Below, in pieces: positions 1,483-42,484 of a stretch of 64,000 nucleotides of DNA. The notes below the pieces were generated by a model. It was not told where the DNA came from and did no database searches. It saw only the letters and a program-made list of their open reading frames with translations. This stretch comes from Desulfobulbaceae bacterium (lineage in GTDB: Bacteria; Desulfobacterota; Desulfobulbia; Desulfobulbales; Desulfobulbaceae): NCBI GenBank assembly GCA_015489765.1, contig WFZC01000198.1, positions 21,076-85,075 on the forward strand. Direction: 5' to 3'. Every line of letters starts with the position of its first letter. The first letter of the stretch is position 1. A program made the position numbers and the translations under genes.

Positions 1483-3417
1483 ATGTGTGGAATCTGCGGA
1501 ATACTTTCACAAAAGCCTGTCCGGGAAGATCATGTCCGGGTGATGACCGATGCCCTGGTGCACCGTGGACCGGATGATGAAGGGATATATGTCAAAGATG
1601 GAGCCGGCCTGGGGCATCGCCGTCTTTCCATTATAGATCTCTCCACCGGCAGGCAGCCCATTGCCAATGAAGACGAGTCAATATGGATTGTGTTCAACGG
1701 GGAAATATATAACTTCCCTGAATTGAAACAGGAACTGGTGCAGCGGGGCCACCGGTTTCGCACCCACACCGACACCGAGGTCATTGTCCATCTCTATGAG
1801 GAGATGGGTGAACGTTGTGTGGAAAAACTAAGCGGCATGTTTGCCTTTGCCATCTGGGATGAGAAGCGGCATCAGCTGTTGCTTGCCCGGGATCGGATAG
1901 GCCAGAAACCGCTTTTTTATACGGATAATCATGGTGAATTTCTCTTTGCCTCCGAGGTCAAGGGCATCCTGGCCCATCGGGAAATCCCGCGCGTTCTTGA
2001 TGTGGAGTCCCTCCATTATTACCTTTCCCTTCGTTTTATCCCGCCGCCCCATACCATGTTCGAGGGGATCTGCAAATTGCCCCCTGGCCATACCCTGATC
2101 CGCCGTGACGGCAAGACAATTCTGCGGCGTTACTGGGACCTTGATTTTACGAGCAAGCTTGGGCTTTCAGAAGCCGATTTTATCAGCGGCCTGGATGAGG
2201 CCCTGCACAAGGCGGTCAGCTCGCATCTCATCAGCGATGTGCCGGTGGGGGCCTTTTTAAGCGGCGGCATGGATACCTCGACCGTGGTGGCCTTGATGGC
2301 GGACATCCGCAAGGAACCTTTTAAGACGTTTGCTATCGGGGTCAAAGAGCAGGATTTTAATGAATTACCCTATGCCCGGGCCGTTGCCGATTATTTCCAT
2401 ACCGATCATGTCGAAGAGGTGGTTTCCGCCGATCTTGTCGAGTTGATGCCCAGTATTGTCTATCATCTTGATGAACCGTCGGATTCCATTGCCGCCTGTA
2501 TGTACCAGGCGGCCCGGTTGGCAGGAAGTCATGTCAAGGTGGTGATGGGGGGGGACGGCGGCGACGAACTGTTTGCCGGCTTTGACCGATATATGGGGGT
2601 GGGATATATCAATCACTACGCCCTGTTGCCCCGATTGATTCGGCATGGTCTGCTGCGCCCGTTTTTTCATCTTCTGCCGGACAGCTTCACCTATAAGAGT
2701 TTTGTCCAGAAGCTGCGGTGGATGGATCAACTTGCCGACTACAGCGAAGGGGAACGGTATGCGGAGGCGACGGCGTTCTTTCGGTTCAGCCATTCCCAGA
2801 AGGGACGGTTGTTTACGCAGGAGTATTGGCAACAGCTTCAAAAAATCGATGCCAAACAGATCATTGTCCAGCAGTATAACAAACCCAATGCGGAAGATCC
2901 CATTGACCGGATGCTGTACGCCGATTTCATGACCAGGCTCTCCGAGCATACCCTGATGCTGACCGACCGGATGAACATGGCTTTCAGTCTGGAGGCCCGT
3001 TCTCCGTTCCTTGATCATGAGCTGGTCGAGTACCTGGCCCGTTTCCCCAGCAATCTCAAGATTCGAGGCCGGGAGCTTAAATATATTCTCCGGCGATATG
3101 CCAGGACTATTCTGCCTCCTGAAATTACGGCCCGTAAAAAACAGGGTTTTATGTTTCCTGTTGCCTACTGGTTCAGAAACGAGCTGTATCCCTTTGTCAG
3201 GCAGACCCTGGCCGATTCATTTTTTGTCCGCAACGGTATGTTTGACCGTGATTATGTGCTTGGACTCGTAGAGGATCATCGACATAACCGGGATGATCAC
3301 CATGTCCGTTTGTGGATGCTGCTGAATATGGAGGTCTGGCATCAACTTTATATGGAGAACCGTTCTCCGGATGAGGTGGCTTCATCATTTGCCGAGATTC
3401 GTCGTCGGGCCGGCTGA
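1483..3417 (+). CDS. asnB: Glutamine-hydrolysing asparagine synthase-type amidotransferase
   Basis: It is predicted to hydrolyse glutamine at an N-terminal class II domain and transfer ammonia to an adenylated carboxylate. The chosen ATG gives Met-Cys-Gly-Ile-Cys-Gly, which places the nucleophile Cys at residue 2 as the family requires; the open frame runs further upstream but only through repeat DNA. The ATP-pyrophosphatase loop is SGGMDTS at residues 260-266 (Thr where the family usually has Ser), and Gly-Gly-Asp-Gly-Gly-Asp-Glu-Leu-Phe follows near residue 355. The length of 644 aa fits the AsnB subgroup found in exopolysaccharide loci. As the first gene of the cluster it may amidate a sugar acid or amino-acid substituent rather than make free asparagine; that is inference. 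Confidence 0.88.
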   Translation: MCGICGILSQKPVREDHVRVMTDALVHRGPDDEGIYVKDGAGLGHRRLSIIDLSTGRQPIANEDESIWIVFNGEIYNFPELKQELVQRGHRFRTHTDTEVIVHLYEEMGERCVEKLSGMFAFAIWDEKRHQLLLARDRIGQKPLFYTDNHGEFLFASEVKGILAHREIPRVLDVESLHYYLSLRFIPPPHTMFEGICKLPPGHTLIRRDGKTILRRYWDLDFTSKLGLSEADFISGLDEALHKAVSSHLISDVPVGAFLSGGMDTSTVVALMADIRKEPFKTFAIGVKEQDFNELPYARAVADYFHTDHVEEVVSADLVELMPSIVYHLDEPSDSIAACMYQAARLAGSHVKVVMGGDGGDELFAGFDRYMGVGYINHYALLPRLIRHGLLRPFFHLLPDSFTYKSFVQKLRWMDQLADYSEGERYAEATAFFRFSHSQKGRLFTQEYWQQLQKIDAKQIIVQQYNKPNAEDPIDRMLYADFMTRLSEHTLMLTDRMNMAFSLEARSPFLDHELVEYLARFPSNLKIRGRELKYILRRYARTILPPEITARKKQGFMFPVAYWFRNELYPFVRQTLADSFFVRNGMFDRDYVLGLVEDHRHNRDDHHVRLWMLLNMEVWHQLYMENRSPDEVASSFAEIRRRAG

Positions 3418-3522
3418 ATGCTCTTCTGATACCCCGTAAAAAATTTCCACGTATCCAAGGCCGGCCGTGCCCACAACCTAAGCCCGTAGGCAGCGGCTTT
3501 ATCCGCCATATTTATAGTTATC

Positions 3523-4980: not shown

Positions 4981-6818
4981 TGAGCTGGTTTCAGGCAGAG
5001 AAAAAACGCGTGCCCTGGCAGTACATGTGCACCGCCCTGGTGGCGCTCTATCTTACCGGAGCTTCCTGGCATGGTATTGCCGGCGACGTTACCGGCGGCC
5101 GTTATGGCAGCCTGGTGACCAGGCTTGCGCTTGTCGTGATCGTTTCTCTTGTGACCGGCTGGCGTGCCGGCGGTTTTCTTGCCCGGGAACAGCGGCTGCG
5201 GCCTGATTATTTGCTGTTGATGACCTGTTTCTGGGCAATACTGTTTTATCCCATGGTTTCGCATAGTTCGTATATGGGGCGAAGTGTGCGCCAGGTGGTG
5301 CGCTATCTTGAGCGGCTGCAACAGAAAAATCATGGTTCGATGCTCGATGTTGTCCGGGCATTTCCCGGCACCTATGAGAAATACTGGCAGGATAATTCGA
5401 TCCTGCCCAAGGGGTTTATCTATCTCAACAGCATGGTCAAGGTCTATCTCCTTCATATCTCACCCAATCCAACCGTGGCCCTGGGGGAAAACGGGTTCTA
5501 TTTCGAGGGTTATGGGGCCAGGAAGGTAGAAAAGGGGATTGTGGAATCCTTTGATAATATAGCTGATTACCTTGGCATGATTCCATTTTCCCCCCTTGAG
5601 CTCTGGAAGTGGAACCAGACCCTTGAGGAGCGGAGTTACTGGCTGAAAGAACGCGGGGTTGATTATGTCTTTGTCCTGGCGCCCACCAAGGGGCTGGTCT
5701 ATCCGGAAAATCTGCCCGCTTCACTGCGCAGGAGGATTGGCGGGACCAGGAGGTACATGCAGTTGTCACGCTATCTCCGGAACAATACCGATATTCATTT
5801 TATCGACCTGTTGCCGCCGCTTCTTGCCGCCAAGAAAAAAAGTCCCGATCCCCAGCTTTTTTACAAGACGGATTTTCACTGGAATTTTTACGGTTCCTTT
5901 GTCGCCTATCAGGCCATGGTCCGTGCTTTACAACGATTTTTCCCAAAATATCATCTACGTCCTCTCTCTCTTGACGACTTCACGATCAAGGTAAACAAAC
6001 ACTGGGCCCATCACCGTTTCATGAATATGATCGGCCTGCCGGAGCGGTTGCACCGGCATGAACACTACCTGACCCTGGTGCCCAAACCGGGCACTCCGCT
6101 GTATGGTCTGCGGAATCTGCCCGCAGACGGGGTTCATGACGTATATCCACCCAAGGGAATCTTGACCAACAACAAGGGTGAATCCATGGCCATTCGTATG
6201 GTGCATAATCCCAGGGCCACCATCGACTCTATTCTGTTGCTTGGTGATTCGTTCATGGAAAAATGTGTCTACTATTTCAGCGCCCATGCGAAAGAGGTAT
6301 GGAATTACCGGACCGTGGTCAATTTTCCCTACAAGATTTTTCTTTATAAGAATCCTACTATTACTATCCAGGAAATTCTGAACATGTTTCTGCTCCGGCC
6401 GCCGCCGGAAAATCCACCGGGCATCCGTCAGGAGTATCTTGCAGCCCAGGCTGCCCGCTTACGCGCAGCCGGAGCTGTAATCATCCCCCTTAAGGCGCAT
6501 CCGGTTTCCGGTGGCAGGGTGGCCAGAATCCCTGTTCCTGCCGCGGCATGTAAGGGTCGCCGCTCTATTGTCCGGATAGGGCTTGATGGCGGCGGCAGCA
6601 GAAGGATACAGGTCTCGTTTGTGATGGCGGGTACGAGTGATGAGAAGAGATGGACAGAGGAACGAATGCATGGTAAGCATACCACCTTTTATGTCTCGCT
6701 TCCTCCGGATGGTTCGGTCCGGGCATTGCTGCTCCGTTATGCAGGCAAGTCCACGGCTGCCCCGTCCATTTCCGAAACAGTGCTAATAGCTGGCGCGTCA
6801 GCTCAGAAAGAGGAGTAA
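4980..6818 (+). CDS. AlgJ/AlgX-like SGNH acetyltransferase
   Basis: The 612-residue protein has two or three N-terminal hydrophobic segments and then a periplasmic domain with the AlgJ/AlgX (SGNH-like) signatures: Asp-Phe-His-Trp-Asn near residue 300 (the DxHW motif) and Gly-Asp-Ser-Phe-Met near residue 422 (the Ser nucleophile block). Proteins of this type receive the acyl group from an AlgI-type MBOAT and place it on the polysaccharide in the periplasm. It is translationally coupled to the MBOAT gene by a 1-bp overlap. A C-terminal extension of roughly 130 residues beyond the SGNH core looks beta-rich and may bind carbohydrate, but I see no named motif there. Confidence 0.82.
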   Translation: MSWFQAEKKRVPWQYMCTALVALYLTGASWHGIAGDVTGGRYGSLVTRLALVVIVSLVTGWRAGGFLAREQRLRPDYLLLMTCFWAILFYPMVSHSSYMGRSVRQVVRYLERLQQKNHGSMLDVVRAFPGTYEKYWQDNSILPKGFIYLNSMVKVYLLHISPNPTVALGENGFYFEGYGARKVEKGIVESFDNIADYLGMIPFSPLELWKWNQTLEERSYWLKERGVDYVFVLAPTKGLVYPENLPASLRRRIGGTRRYMQLSRYLRNNTDIHFIDLLPPLLAAKKKSPDPQLFYKTDFHWNFYGSFVAYQAMVRALQRFFPKYHLRPLSLDDFTIKVNKHWAHHRFMNMIGLPERLHRHEHYLTLVPKPGTPLYGLRNLPADGVHDVYPPKGILTNNKGESMAIRMVHNPRATIDSILLLGDSFMEKCVYYFSAHAKEVWNYRTVVNFPYKIFLYKNPTITIQEILNMFLLRPPPENPPGIRQEYLAAQAARLRAAGAVIIPLKAHPVSGGRVARIPVPAAACKGRRSIVRIGLDGGGSRRIQVSFVMAGTSDEKRWTEERMHGKHTTFYVSLPPDGSVRALLLRYAGKSTAAPSISETVLIAGASAQKEE

Positions 6819-6821
6819 TCC

Positions 6822-7805
6822 ATGTCTACAGTCGATTATGTTGAGCTGTTTGAACTGGTCAGCAAGGAAAATTTTGATGAACAACGGTATCTGGAGCAAA
6901 ACCAGGATGTAAAAAGGGCTGTGGCCGAAGGGGTGATAGAATCGGCCAGGAAGCACTGTCTTCGCCATGGCCTGAAAGAAAAACGGTCCCAGCAGAAAAG
7001 GGTGGAAGATTATCTTGACGAGCTGGTCCGTCTGCGTAAAAGGAAACTCGTCCGGATCAAAAAGAGATTAAAAAAGGGGATTGATGTCCGCATAAATGAT
7101 CAGATGGTTGTTGATTACACCGGTAGCGGCCGTAAGGAAAAATTCGGATTTTCAGAAACCGACAACGTTTCATCATTTTTTTATGATGACCTGCCCCTTG
7201 AGATCATCAACCGCAATCCGGAGGGCTTGATACTTGACTGCGGAGCCGGCTTCAGGCCGGTGTATTATGAAAATGTGGTCAATTACGAGATTGTGCCCTA
7301 TCCGACAACCGATGTTATCGGCTTTGCCGAGGATCTGCCCTTTGAGGACAATTCCTTTGACGCTGTCTTCTCGTTTGCCGTTTTAGAGCATGTCAAGCTC
7401 CCCTTTGAAGCCGCGGCCGAGATGTGCCGAGTGCTCAAGCCCGGCGGCACCATGGCGGTTTGCACGGCTTTTCTCCAGCCGGTGCACGGTTATCCCCATC
7501 ATTATTACAACATGACGCATATGGGGCTTAAGGCCCTGTTCGAAGACGCAATCGACATAGAGCGTCAGTTCGTTAATTCCGGCACCGGCCCGGTCTGGTC
7601 CCTGTCCTGGATACTGCGACGCTGGGCCAAACAGTTGCCGGTCCGGGAAAGAAAGAAATTTCTGAAGATGAAGGTGGCTGATCTGATAGATCATCCCTTT
7701 GAATACCTTGACCATGGTTTTGTCACCGCCTTGCCGGAAGAGGCAAATTTCGAGCTGGCCTCCGCCACTCTGCTCGTCGGGACAAAGAGGAATCAGCCGG
7801 GATGA
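6822..7805 (+). CDS. Class I SAM-dependent methyltransferase
   Basis: The protein has 327 residues. About 100 charged N-terminal residues precede a Methyltransf_11-type domain with the glycine motif Leu-Asp-Cys-Gly-Ala-Gly near residue 140, Glu-Asp-Leu-Pro-Phe near 170 and Phe-Ser-Phe-Ala-Val-Leu-Glu-His-Val near 185. The start has a strong AGAGGAG site. The N-terminal part contains a short Tyr-Leu-Glu-Gln-Asn-Gln-Asp-Val-like stretch seen in glycan-cluster proteins. Position between the acetylation pair and a GT2 gene suggests methylation of a sugar residue or chain end. Confidence 0.8.
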   Translation: MSTVDYVELFELVSKENFDEQRYLEQNQDVKRAVAEGVIESARKHCLRHGLKEKRSQQKRVEDYLDELVRLRKRKLVRIKKRLKKGIDVRINDQMVVDYTGSGRKEKFGFSETDNVSSFFYDDLPLEIINRNPEGLILDCGAGFRPVYYENVVNYEIVPYPTTDVIGFAEDLPFEDNSFDAVFSFAVLEHVKLPFEAAAEMCRVLKPGGTMAVCTAFLQPVHGYPHHYYNMTHMGLKALFEDAIDIERQFVNSGTGPVWSLSWILRRWAKQLPVRERKKFLKMKVADLIDHPFEYLDHGFVTALPEEANFELASATLLVGTKRNQPG

Positions 7806-34008: not shown

Positions 34009-34117
34009 TTAACCGGCTGGACATCTGATTTTATCAGTTTTTCTTGTGAAGTTAAAATGTTTGTCCCTTTTTTGGGTGTGGCATTGCAGACAGGTGCTTG
34101 CATTCGGTTTTCCGGGG
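34009..34117 (-). other. Probable frameshifted C-terminus with lost fourth heme motif
   Basis: In the main frame the tail reads Pro-Arg-Lys-Thr-Glu-Cys-Lys-His and stops at 34052. Removing one base from the run of four C (GGGG at 34114-34117 on the plus strand) gives Gly-Lys-Pro-Asn-Ala-Ser-Thr-Cys-Leu-Gln-Cys-His-Thr and continues to a stop at 34009, just before the terminator. The CxxCH in the shifted frame is what relatives carry. This is either a sequencing error, a real mutation or phase variation. Confidence 0.7.
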
Positions 34118-35635
34118 CACTCTGCTTTCCGGAGCCTGGGAATGCTGCCGGGCCGGGCCATGACAGGTTTCACAACCGACACCCCGTAGTCGTGGGGGAA
34201 TAGTTGTAAGCAGCGCCTCCTGACTGGTCAGACTGGGACCATAATTCGGCAAGGTGACGTGACAGGATATGCAATCGGGATTATACTGTTGATCTTTTTC
34301 GACCAGCGTCTGCCATGCCTTGGCATGATCGGTCTGCAGGTAAAAGGCAACCTGGATGGGATGACATTTTTGACAGATTCGACTGCCTGCCATATCGGCA
34401 AAAGGGGCTGGCTGGTGTGCGTTGTTTGCTGATTGCCGCTGTTTTTCCCACCTTTGCCGCAGTTTCTGCTGCTCTTTCCTGTTAATTATATTGACCTCAC
34501 GTCTGGTCCGGTCAACAATGGCCTTTACCTCCTTGTCTTCCGGAATGGAGGTTTCCACCGCGATGAAGGTGTTGTGGAACCGACAGGCTGTCCCCGCGCT
34601 ATCGTCTTGTAGGGTGAGTTTTTTTAGTTTACGTTCAAGTTCTTCCGCTCCCCTGACCAGCCGTTGATACTGGAGGTTATTTCGGAGTTCCTCTTGCGGG
34701 TGACGTTTTTCCATCCTGCCTATCTGCCAGCGTATTCGATCAAGACGGTTTTGAGTCTTTATCAACTGATCCGTATCATTATCACTCCAGGTTTTTGTCC
34801 CGCCCCAGTCGACCTTGAGAATGCCGAGCGATTTTCCCCGGCTTGCGGTCCGGCAGAGCAGGGTATTGTTGATATTGAGCGGCGGCTGGTTGCCACCTCC
34901 CTGTCCGGCCTGGAATATGATGTGTATGTTTTTGAATTTTTGAGCTATTTCTCTGTTGGTCTGCGGCGAAGCGCTGGAGAGAAGGATGATAAGGTCCGCC
35001 CTGTTGTTGATTTTTTTCAGCACTGCCGGCAGCGCCTCCTGCCAGGGAAGGACATGGTACTGGTGTTGCTGCCGGTTTCCGGATAGTGGTCCTGTCAGGC
35101 CAATGCAGCCAATTGTCATACTGCCGGCTTTTATCATGCGATATGGTGGAAAAATTGGCGTATTTTCCTTGTCTTCGTAAAGATTAGCAGAGAGAAGAGA
35201 GAGGTCATTTTTTTTTGCCAGGCGGACAAGAAAATCCGATCCCGCGGCCAGGTCATAGGGAGAGACACCGATGGCCCTGATCTGCATCGCCGCCATTGCC
35301 TGGCCGATGCCTTTGGCGATGCGTCTGGCTGGTTTCAACTGGATGGGGGAAAGATAGGGGCGGGCAAAAAACATGGCCCCGCCGTCGATTGCAATCACCG
35401 GTTGTTTATCTGTGTGGCGCAGCTGCTGTTTGATAAGGTATGCTTTTCTGGACAGACCGCCCAGTTGATGACGGCTTCAGCCGCAGGGCTCAAGCTCGCC
35501 CCGGATATCATTGCCGTAGAGTATGGTTATTTTCTGTTCAGCGGCCCGGCTGCCGGCCGAAGCGGCAGGAATGACCAGGAAAAATCCAAGAAAAATAAGG
35601 AAGAGAGTAATAAATTTGCTATGCTGGTTTTGCAT
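34052..35635 (-). CDS. Candidate selenoprotein: UshA-like metallophosphoesterase/cytochrome c protein
   Basis: Read through one TGA at codon 53 this is a 527-residue exported protein. The ATG at 35633-35635 overlaps the end of rarA by 17 bp and begins a signal peptide (hydrophobic core 8-23, Ala-Ala-Ser-Ala near 27). Then come Leu-Tyr-Gly-Asn-Asp-Ile-Arg-Gly near 40 and Glu-Pro-Cys-Gly-[TGA]-Ser-Arg-His-Gln-Leu-Gly-Gly-Leu; homologues that I know have Cys at the TGA position (EPCGC...QLGGL). The C-terminal part has heme sites Cys-Gln-Lys-Cys-His, Cys-Ile-Ser-Cys-His and Cys-Glu-Thr-Cys-His. A GTG inside the frame at 35398 would give a protein without signal peptide. The frame appears to shift near the 3' end (see 34009-34117). 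Confidence 0.82.
35448..35479 (-). promoter_or_regulatory. In-frame UGA with bacterial SECIS-like hairpin
   Basis: The TGA is at 35479-35477 (minus strand). Twelve nucleotides later CTGGG (35464-35460) pairs with TCCAG (35452-35448) around a loop containing GGTCT. The loop motif GGUCU and the distance are the same as in the SelB-binding element of E. coli fdhF (11 nt), from established knowledge of that element. Confidence 0.78.
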
Positions 35636-36950
35636 TGGCTTGTGCTCGTTTTGCTAATATTTTCCGCCACTTGATTAGGCGGTCCCGAATGATGGCCTCA
35701 AAGCCGCGGTTTGTCGGCTGGTAATATCTTGTGCCCGCAAGTTCGGCGGGCAGGTGTTCCTGGTCGACCAGGCCGTCTTCCTGGTCATGGGCATACCGGT
35801 ATCCCCTGCCATAGCCGATGGATTTCATCATTTTGGTGGGAGCATTGCGCAGATGCATGGGCACCGGAAGGGAACCCGTGGCTCTTATGTCCTTGTCTAT
35901 ATGATGTTCCATCCGATAGAGGGCATTGCTCTTGGGGGCGGTGGCAAGGTAGGTAACGGCCTGCATGAGCGCCAGGTCACCTTCGGGCGAACCCAGCATC
36001 TGATAGGCGTCCCTGGCGGCAAGGGCGACCGTCAGTCCTTGCGGATCGGCAATGCCCACATCTTCACTGGCAAAACGTATCAGGCGGCGGGCAATATAGA
36101 GCGGGTCCTCACCGCTTTTCAGCAGCCTGCGCAACCAGTAGGCCGCACCGTCCGGATCGCTGTCCCGCATGCTTTTATGAAGCGCTGATATGAGATTGTA
36201 ATGCTCCTCGCCCATGTTGTCAAAGCGCAGTGCCTGTTGCTGTGCCGCTATCCGGAGAATGCCGGTGGTGATTTCACCATGTCCGTTGCCCTTGTTGACA
36301 AGGGTGGCCGCGGTTTCCAGGCAATTCAATGCCCGGCGACAATCACCGTCGGCTGACCTGGCCAAGGCTTCCAGGGCCTCCCGATCTATTGTCAGTTTCT
36401 GTTTGCCCAGGCCGTTTTCAGGGTCATCGATGGCCCGTTTGATGATGGTTTGAATGTCCGTACTGGCCAGCGGCTTGAGGACCAGGAGTTGGGTTCTTGA
36501 AAGAAGCGGCGCAATAACATGAAAGGAAGGGTTTTCCGTTGTTGCTCCGATAAGCGTCAACAGGCCGCTTTCAACATGGGGGAGAAAACCATCCTGCTGT
36601 CCTTTGTTGAAGCGGTGGATCTCGTCAACAAAGAGAATGGTGGGTTTGTCGCTTTGGCCTCTTTTGGCTTCCGCTTCGGCGACAATACGTCTGACATCCT
36701 TGACACCGGAGAGAACAGCGGAAAAAAAGATAAAATCAGCCGACAGGCTGTGGGCAAGAATAGTCGCCAGGGTGGTCTTACCCGATCCCGGTGGTCCCCA
36801 GAGCAAGAGCGACGGTATCCTGCCCTGCTCGATGAACCTGTTGAGCAGGCGGCCCTCTCCTGTGAGATGCTCCTGACCGACAAAATGGGCCATTGTCCTG
36901 GGCCGCATCCGTTCGGCAAGGGGTGTGTTGTGCTGATGTTGTTTCTGCAT
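35619..36950 (-). CDS. rarA: Replication-associated recombination protein A (AAA+ ATPase)
   Basis: The 443-residue protein belongs to the RarA/MgsA/WRNIP1 family, which acts at stalled replication forks. It has Phe-Val-Gly-Gln-Glu-His-Leu near residue 23, Walker A Gly-Pro-Pro-Gly-Ser-Gly-Lys-Thr-Thr at 52-60, Walker B Phe-Val-Asp-Glu-Ile-His near 107, and the C-terminal tetramerisation region. The ATG at 36950 after AAAGG gives the usual length; an in-frame ATG at 37061 would add 37 atypical residues. Its stop lies inside the start of the selenoprotein gene, so the two are co-transcribed from the promoter at 37117-37145. Confidence 0.94.
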
Positions 36951-37278
36951 GGGGCCTTTATGGGATACCGGGAGGGATAAATGCTTTGTCTGCTTGATCT
37001 TTCCTTTTGGTTTTTCCGCGGGAAAACAGGGGCATGTCTTTGGGTGGAAATCTCTTGTCATGCTTTGGAGCCGGGACAGTATCCGGCCTGTTCCCTGATA
37101 ATTTTTTCACAAATGTATTATCAAACGAATCAGGGTGTTCGTCAAGGGTATGATTTTGTCTCCGGCTGCCGCATCATTGCCTTGCGAGCTCTATGGTGGT
37201 AAGATGTCGCAAAAGTCTCGGAAGCGGTCTTGTAGAGATTTTCCCGGGGAAGATTAGAAGTAGGCAGGCGGTGTCTTG
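36951..37278. other. 328-bp region upstream of rarA
   Basis: Apart from the minus-strand promoter at 37117-37145 and a possible in-frame upstream start for rarA at 37061, nothing coding is supported here. Confidence 0.4.
37117..37145 (-). promoter_or_regulatory. Strong sigma-70-type promoter of rarA
   Basis: On the minus strand TTGACG (37145-37140), a 17-bp spacer and GATAAT (37122-37117) form a near-consensus promoter pointing at rarA and the overlapping selenoprotein gene. Confidence 0.55.
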
Positions 37279-41944: not shown

Positions 41945-42484
41945 ATGACAACCCAGACCATAATGACCGCCCGCGACATAGACCGCAGCCTTGACCGGAT
42001 CAGTCTTGAGATACTGGAAAAAAATCATGGTATCGATGAGTTGGCCATCGTTGGTATTCATACCGGTGGTGTCTTTCTCGCTGAACGGATTCATCGAAAA
42101 ATTCTTGTCCGTGAACAGGGTGACATGCCGCTTGGCGCCCTTGATATCACCCTGTACCGGGACGACTGGAGTCTGGTTTCCCAGAATCCCATTGTGCGGA
42201 CAACGGATATCGGATTTAATGTGGATAACCGCCGGGTGGTGCTGGTGGATGATGTCATTTTTACCGGTCGAACAATTCGGGCGGCCATGGATGCGATCAT
42301 GGATTACGGCCGCCCGCTTTCCATTCAGCTGGCGGTACTGATTGATCGCGGCGGCAGGGAACTGCCCATTGGACCCGATTACGTCGGCTTGTACGTCAGC
42401 GCCGAGGATGGTGAGCAGGTGGATGTCCTGCTCGATGAAAAGGGCGGCCGTGACGAAGTTGTCCTGCATGGGCCCGAAGCCTGA
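41945..42484 (+). CDS. pyrR: PyrR bifunctional pyr attenuator/uracil phosphoribosyltransferase
   Basis: The 179-residue protein has the PRTase fold with Val-Val-Leu-Val-Asp-Asp-Val-Ile-Phe-Thr-Gly-Arg-Thr near residue 98 (PRPP-binding loop) and Leu-Ile-Asp-Arg-Gly-Gly-Arg-Glu-Leu-Pro-Ile near 133, characteristic of PyrR. In Firmicutes it binds pyr mRNA; outside them it may be only a weak uracil PRTase. The ATG at 41945 gives the usual length; the frame is open 18 codons further upstream. No pyr genes lie beside it. Confidence 0.92.
   Translation: MTTQTIMTARDIDRSLDRISLEILEKNHGIDELAIVGIHTGGVFLAERIHRKILVREQGDMPLGALDITLYRDDWSLVSQNPIVRTTDIGFNVDNRRVVLVDDVIFTGRTIRAAMDAIMDYGRPLSIQLAVLIDRGGRELPIGPDYVGLYVSAEDGEQVDVLLDEKGGRDEVVLHGPEA

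Follow-up and report, generated by a model that had tools for sequence, protein, structure and literature searches.

A UshA-like multiheme selenoprotein gene of family NF041198 in a Desulfobulbaceae genome

We describe a selenoprotein gene in a 64,000-nucleotide stretch of Desulfobulbaceae DNA (hereafter, the window). The gene is a member of a known family, NF041198, and its single in-frame TGA is almost certainly read as selenocysteine (Sec), although incorporation in the living cell is inferred. The reading that very probably explains the locus is that of an NF041198 member in a Desulfobulbaceae-like genome, in which UGA53 is decoded as Sec and may form part of a redox or sulfur site coupled to a haem relay. 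Both the family and its Sec form are already catalogued. The window gene is a further sequence of this family, and it confirms that a true selenoprotein can be recognized by reading raw sequence.

Reading frame and family

A single frame on the minus strand opens with an ATG at 35635 and encodes a putative signal peptide, then a UshA-type domain and finally a multiheme cytochrome domain of c554 type; it is interrupted only once, by the TGA at 35479-35477 (codon 53), before a stop at 34054-34052. This frame, and the peptide around its TGA, are as the preliminary description had given them. The EPCGU motif occupies residues 49-53 and follows the signal peptide. The features of the gene are:

34052..35635, minus strand: UshA-like selenoprotein gene, 527 amino acids as read in the window with TGA as Sec
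35555..35635, minus strand: predicted N-terminal signal peptide, residues 1-27, from sequence inspection, with putative cleavage between ASA and GS and a helix at residues 5-19 in the structure model
35477..35479, minus strand: in-frame TGA, Sec53 of the Cys51-Gly52-Sec53 motif, in the peptide ELEPCG-[TGA]-SRHQLGGL, assigned from homologue conservation
34805..35536, minus strand: UshA / 5'-nucleotidase / SoxB-type domain, residues ~34-277, without the conserved dimetal ligand set
34055..34393, minus strand: cytochrome c554-type domain (PF13435), with in-frame CxxCH at residues 421-425, 455-459 and 488-492

Calling of open reading frames with translation table 11 yields just a 448-residue frame from a GTG at 35398, without the signal peptide and the PCGU part; this is the truncated protein that the preliminary description had expected from ordinary annotation. 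The gene start overlaps by 17 bp (35619-35635, minus strand) the 3' end of an upstream gene (35619-37061), whose product, to judge from its own sequence, is probably a RarA/MgsA-like AAA+ ATPase. A similar upstream C-terminus is found at a related locus (L012), and this neighborhood may thus be conserved in the genus.

The protein scores 519.3 bits against the NCBIfam profile NF041198 (UshA_like_PCGU, “UshA-like (seleno)protein”; cut-off 275), with residues 15-509 covering profile positions 2-498 of 519, and it shares the PCGU motif of that family. Scores fall far under the cut-off for the SoxB profile TIGR04486 (48.5 bits, E 4e-13; cut-off 550) and for NF049981, UshA-like (seleno)protein family 2 (54 bits; cut-off 140). 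The latter family has a related UshA-like domain, but its listed motif is CxxU (PMC13188914), as opposed to the CxU of the window protein. A COG0737 UshA-like selenoprotein family of the CxU type was reported in 2008, with 76 sequences in the Global Ocean Sampling survey (PMC2398784); we liken it to the window protein by its description. The Sec form also appears in reviews of 2022 (PMC9312934) and 2026 (PMC13188914). The preliminary description had asked whether this form was already on record; together with NF041198 itself, these three sources show that it was. No match was found in the plasmid collection, and no relative among viral contigs. In the literature on the function of the UshA-like selenoprotein family (SoxB, c554 and UshA context), we found no experimental work.

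Evidence for selenocysteine at codon 53

The window's own genome encodes tRNA-Sec (72.3 bits; cut-off 47), SelA (633.9 bits), SelB (372.9 bits) and SelD (367 bits), each over its cut-off. Thus, all four of the genes that the preliminary description had proposed to look for (selA, selB, selC and selD) are present. SelD is known as a selenoprotein in other bacteria. The selD gene of the window's genome (L048, contig C31) has one in-frame TGA near its start, at ~1532-1534 (GGC TGA GCT GCC AAA CTT), and its product is probably a selenoprotein as well.

What lifts the TGA of the window gene above chance is conservation in homologues, not the open frame or the hairpin alone. Across the window, 31 TGAs are preceded by at least 35 open codons and followed by at least 150, and 98 of 2157 TGAs precede a model-like hairpin. 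We searched 57 genomes, the window's own among them and the rest its relatives; 55 have a match, and most of these matches contain one TGA, while forms that lack it are found in genus g9 and a few others. In a sample of 297 genomes across the phylum, there are matches at 1e-40 in 99 and scores over the cut-off in 58, again mostly with one TGA. Reading the motif in the fetched loci gave 53 Sec rows and 8 Cys rows (L030, L033, L035, L081, L082, L084, L091 and L092). The Sec rows represent 52 distinct sequences, the window gene being present in two of the rows. Cys also occupies the position in myxobacterial and other homologues. By motif search, the PCG[UC] pattern is absent from 12 fetched loci; one of these, L037, is a fragment that starts after the motif, and another is L063, described below.

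We aligned 52 proteins from Desulfobulbaceae, Myxococcota, Poribacteria, Verrucomicrobia, Planctomycetes and others (alignment A2), with Sec written as C. C51, G52 and C/U53 are invariant (52/52). The preliminary description had given Cys at the TGA position for Cys homologues, and had held that homologues with neither Cys nor Sec would speak against its reading; every aligned protein has one or the other. Over the homologues as a whole, the position is nearly always TGA or Cys. One divergent orthologue, L063 (G164:C168), has S-G-R in place of Cys-Gly-Sec, while Sec is present in L058 and L060-L062, to which it is closely related; it may be a copy from which the redox site has disappeared. The isolate Desulfurivibrio sp. 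AMeS2 (L104), of the Desulfobulbales, has a Sec form. The cable bacterium Candidatus Electronema aureum (L098) carries a Cys form; neighboring genes appear to encode a thiol protein of DsbC type (2668-3489) and, at 5752-7077, a protein with several CxxCH motifs.

A hairpin follows the TGA after a 12-nt spacer and has the GGUCU loop that the preliminary description reported:

35448..35464, minus strand: bacterial SECIS hairpin, 6-bp stem CUGGGC/GUCCAG (35464-35459 with 35453-35448), loop GGUCU (35458-35454), loop 18 nt after the UGA

This hairpin fits the published bacterial SECIS model, the check proposed at the outset, which specifies a loop of 3-9 nt, a stem of 4-16 bp, a G in the first two loop bases, a distance of 16-37 nt from the UGA and an energy of at most -7.5 kcal/mol (PMC13188914). 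When one flanking base at either end is included, the energy is -8.4 kcal/mol; for the bare stem it is -7.3 kcal/mol, and the limit of -7.5 kcal/mol is passed only with the flanking bases counted. A SECIS scan of the window that used bare stems left these bases out and for that reason failed to pick up the true hairpin. The same scan gave two other TGAs, at 42339 (plus strand) and 46042 (minus strand), which look like shadow frames. Rfam returned no match. Compared with shuffled sequences, the hairpin is not significant by itself (z -0.5 to -1.0), and its strength is therefore not used as proof; alone, it is weak evidence for Sec.

We find that the codons of the hairpin region are frozen at synonymous sites in the Sec forms (GGC 50/53, GGT 46/53, xCC 53/53), whereas the same codons drift in the Cys forms (5/8, 2/8 and 4/8, respectively). 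Fisher values for Sec against Cys codons (0.025, 7e-4 and 1e-4) are indicative only, as related sequences are not independent. Stem cells are paired in 193 of 198 cases in the main Sec group, which has UCC or CCC and the loop GGUCU, compared with 26 of 48 in the eight Cys forms. At the base of the stem, C-G is replaced by U-A in six distinct sequences of the main group. In a second Sec group with GCC (e.g., L055-L077), the stem register is shifted by one and 84 of 95 cells are paired.

Fold, metal ligands and haem motifs

A first structure model, built without an alignment, was poor (pLDDT 41.6) and was replaced by an aligned model (pLDDT 87). The latter matches 5'-nucleotidases and SoxB with Z 31-33 over ~275 residues at rmsd 2.0-2.5, and Foldseek gives E values as low as 6e-19; values are Z 31.5, rmsd 2.4 and 274 aligned residues for SoxB, and Z 32.4, rmsd 2.1 and 280 aligned residues for UshA. 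The N-terminal domain therefore has the fold of SoxB and of the UshA / CD73 5'-nucleotidases (Z 31-32), but it lacks most of their dimetal ligands, and a multiheme cytochrome domain replaces their usual C-terminal domain. That domain matches Pfam Cytochrome_C554 (PF13435) over residues 421-493 (E 6.5e-13) and is of the same type as cytochrome c554 of Nitrosomonas (1bvb; profile E 1.4e-16), from which it differs in being fused to a UshA-like domain and in having three in-frame CxxCH motifs. These three motifs, together with His437 and His498, are invariant in the alignment of 52 proteins.

Aligned to 5'-nucleotidases, ND-x-H becomes ND-x-R, DxGD becomes DGGA, GNHE becomes VSPY, GHSG becomes SSAS, and the last GGH becomes AGQ or similar. 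Of the dinuclear set (D, H, D, N, H, H), which we take to be the metal ligands of CD73 and UshA, the first Asp (D43) alone is kept; the other five are substituted and vary among the 52 homologues. Arg45 stands for the His of DxH and Ala87 for the bridging Asp of DxGD, and neither the Asn-His of GNHE nor the His of GHSG or of GGH is retained. Thus, of the “metallophosphoesterase/cytochrome” first proposed, the fold and the cytochrome domain are borne out, while most of the metal ligands are gone.

These data bear on whether the protein is a genuine Sec-containing metallophosphoesterase or thiosulfohydrolase, whose Sec would bind metal or substrate in a UshA/SoxB-type active site. The fold match, the SoxB profile hit (though far under its cut-off) and the two Asp residues that are common in the alignment, Asp43 and Asp84, favor such an enzyme. 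We nevertheless consider it unlikely, given the five lost ligands and the freedom with which their columns vary. A single-metal role is possible, since Asp43 and Asp84 are still common and position 87 is Asp in a minority of homologues.

Near its 3' end, the window copy departs from its nearest relatives:

34114..34117, minus strand: CCCC run, CCC in L010 and L011; +1 frameshift
34009..34092, minus strand: displaced C-terminus in the relatives' frame, with a fourth CxxCH (CLQCH) at 34092-34078 and a TAA at 34011-34009

The window reads GTGCCCCGGAAAAC where L010, 93% identical to the window protein over the protein, has GTGCCCGGAAAAC. After the extra C, the window frame ends RKTECKHLSAMPHPKKGQTF, and the other frame reads ASTCLQCHTQKRDKHFNFTRKTDKIRCPAG, as in L010 and L011. 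The last ~20 residues, after residue ~506, are therefore out of frame relative to the relatives, and the fourth CxxCH, found in 51 of the 52 aligned proteins, is lost from the exception, the window copy, which has three in frame. The 3' end at 34052 in the preliminary description thus needs correction: the TAA at 34054-34052 is an out-of-frame stop, and the relatives' frame would reach the TAA at 34011-34009. The CCCC run reflects either a real mutation or an error in the assembly, which is a draft of 387 contigs. If it is real, the window allele might be impaired, with one haem site fewer.

This frameshift makes decay or assembly error conceivable for the TGA too, which would then be a true stop or a sequencing error in a pseudogene or between two separate reading frames. 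Such an account is very improbable: dozens of independent genomes share this TGA within this motif, the frame is open on both sides, synonymous sites after the TGA are frozen, and the genome has the Sec machinery. This recurrence also excludes a sequencing error at 35477-35479, which the preliminary description had named as grounds for refutation. A changed genetic code, with TGA read as Trp or another residue, would equally keep the frame open, but can practically be dismissed, because homologues without the TGA have Cys, not Trp, and the genome has the full Sec machinery.

Proposed function

In the reading that we prefer, SelB and charged tRNA-Sec, acting with the hairpin just after UGA53, would decode the stop as selenocysteine. 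The product would be exported by way of its signal peptide, and its C-terminal domain would receive c-type haems, four of them in the relatives. Most dimetal ligands are gone from the 5'-nucleotidase/SoxB fold of the N-terminal domain, and the fixed feature of this domain is Cys51-Gly52-Sec53. Outside the cytoplasm, this Cys/Sec pair may act in redox chemistry or bind sulfur species, and exchange electrons with the haem relay. We favor a redox role over that of a phosphatase, since the ligand columns drift whereas neither CGU nor the haem motifs vary. Taken on its own and judged from conservation, we regard the redox role as evenly balanced between true and false.

The loss of ligands and the fixed CGU speak against the phosphatase-sounding name of the family and give the redox hypothesis. 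Tentatively, and with slightly less confidence than in the redox role itself, we suggest that the family is misnamed: a metallophosphoesterase fold without its metal center may have turned into a redox site of the selenol/thiol kind, connected to a tetraheme cytochrome. In Desulfobulbales, such a protein could serve as a periplasmic selenoprotein module that transfers electrons in the chemistry of sulfur, selenium or oxyanions.
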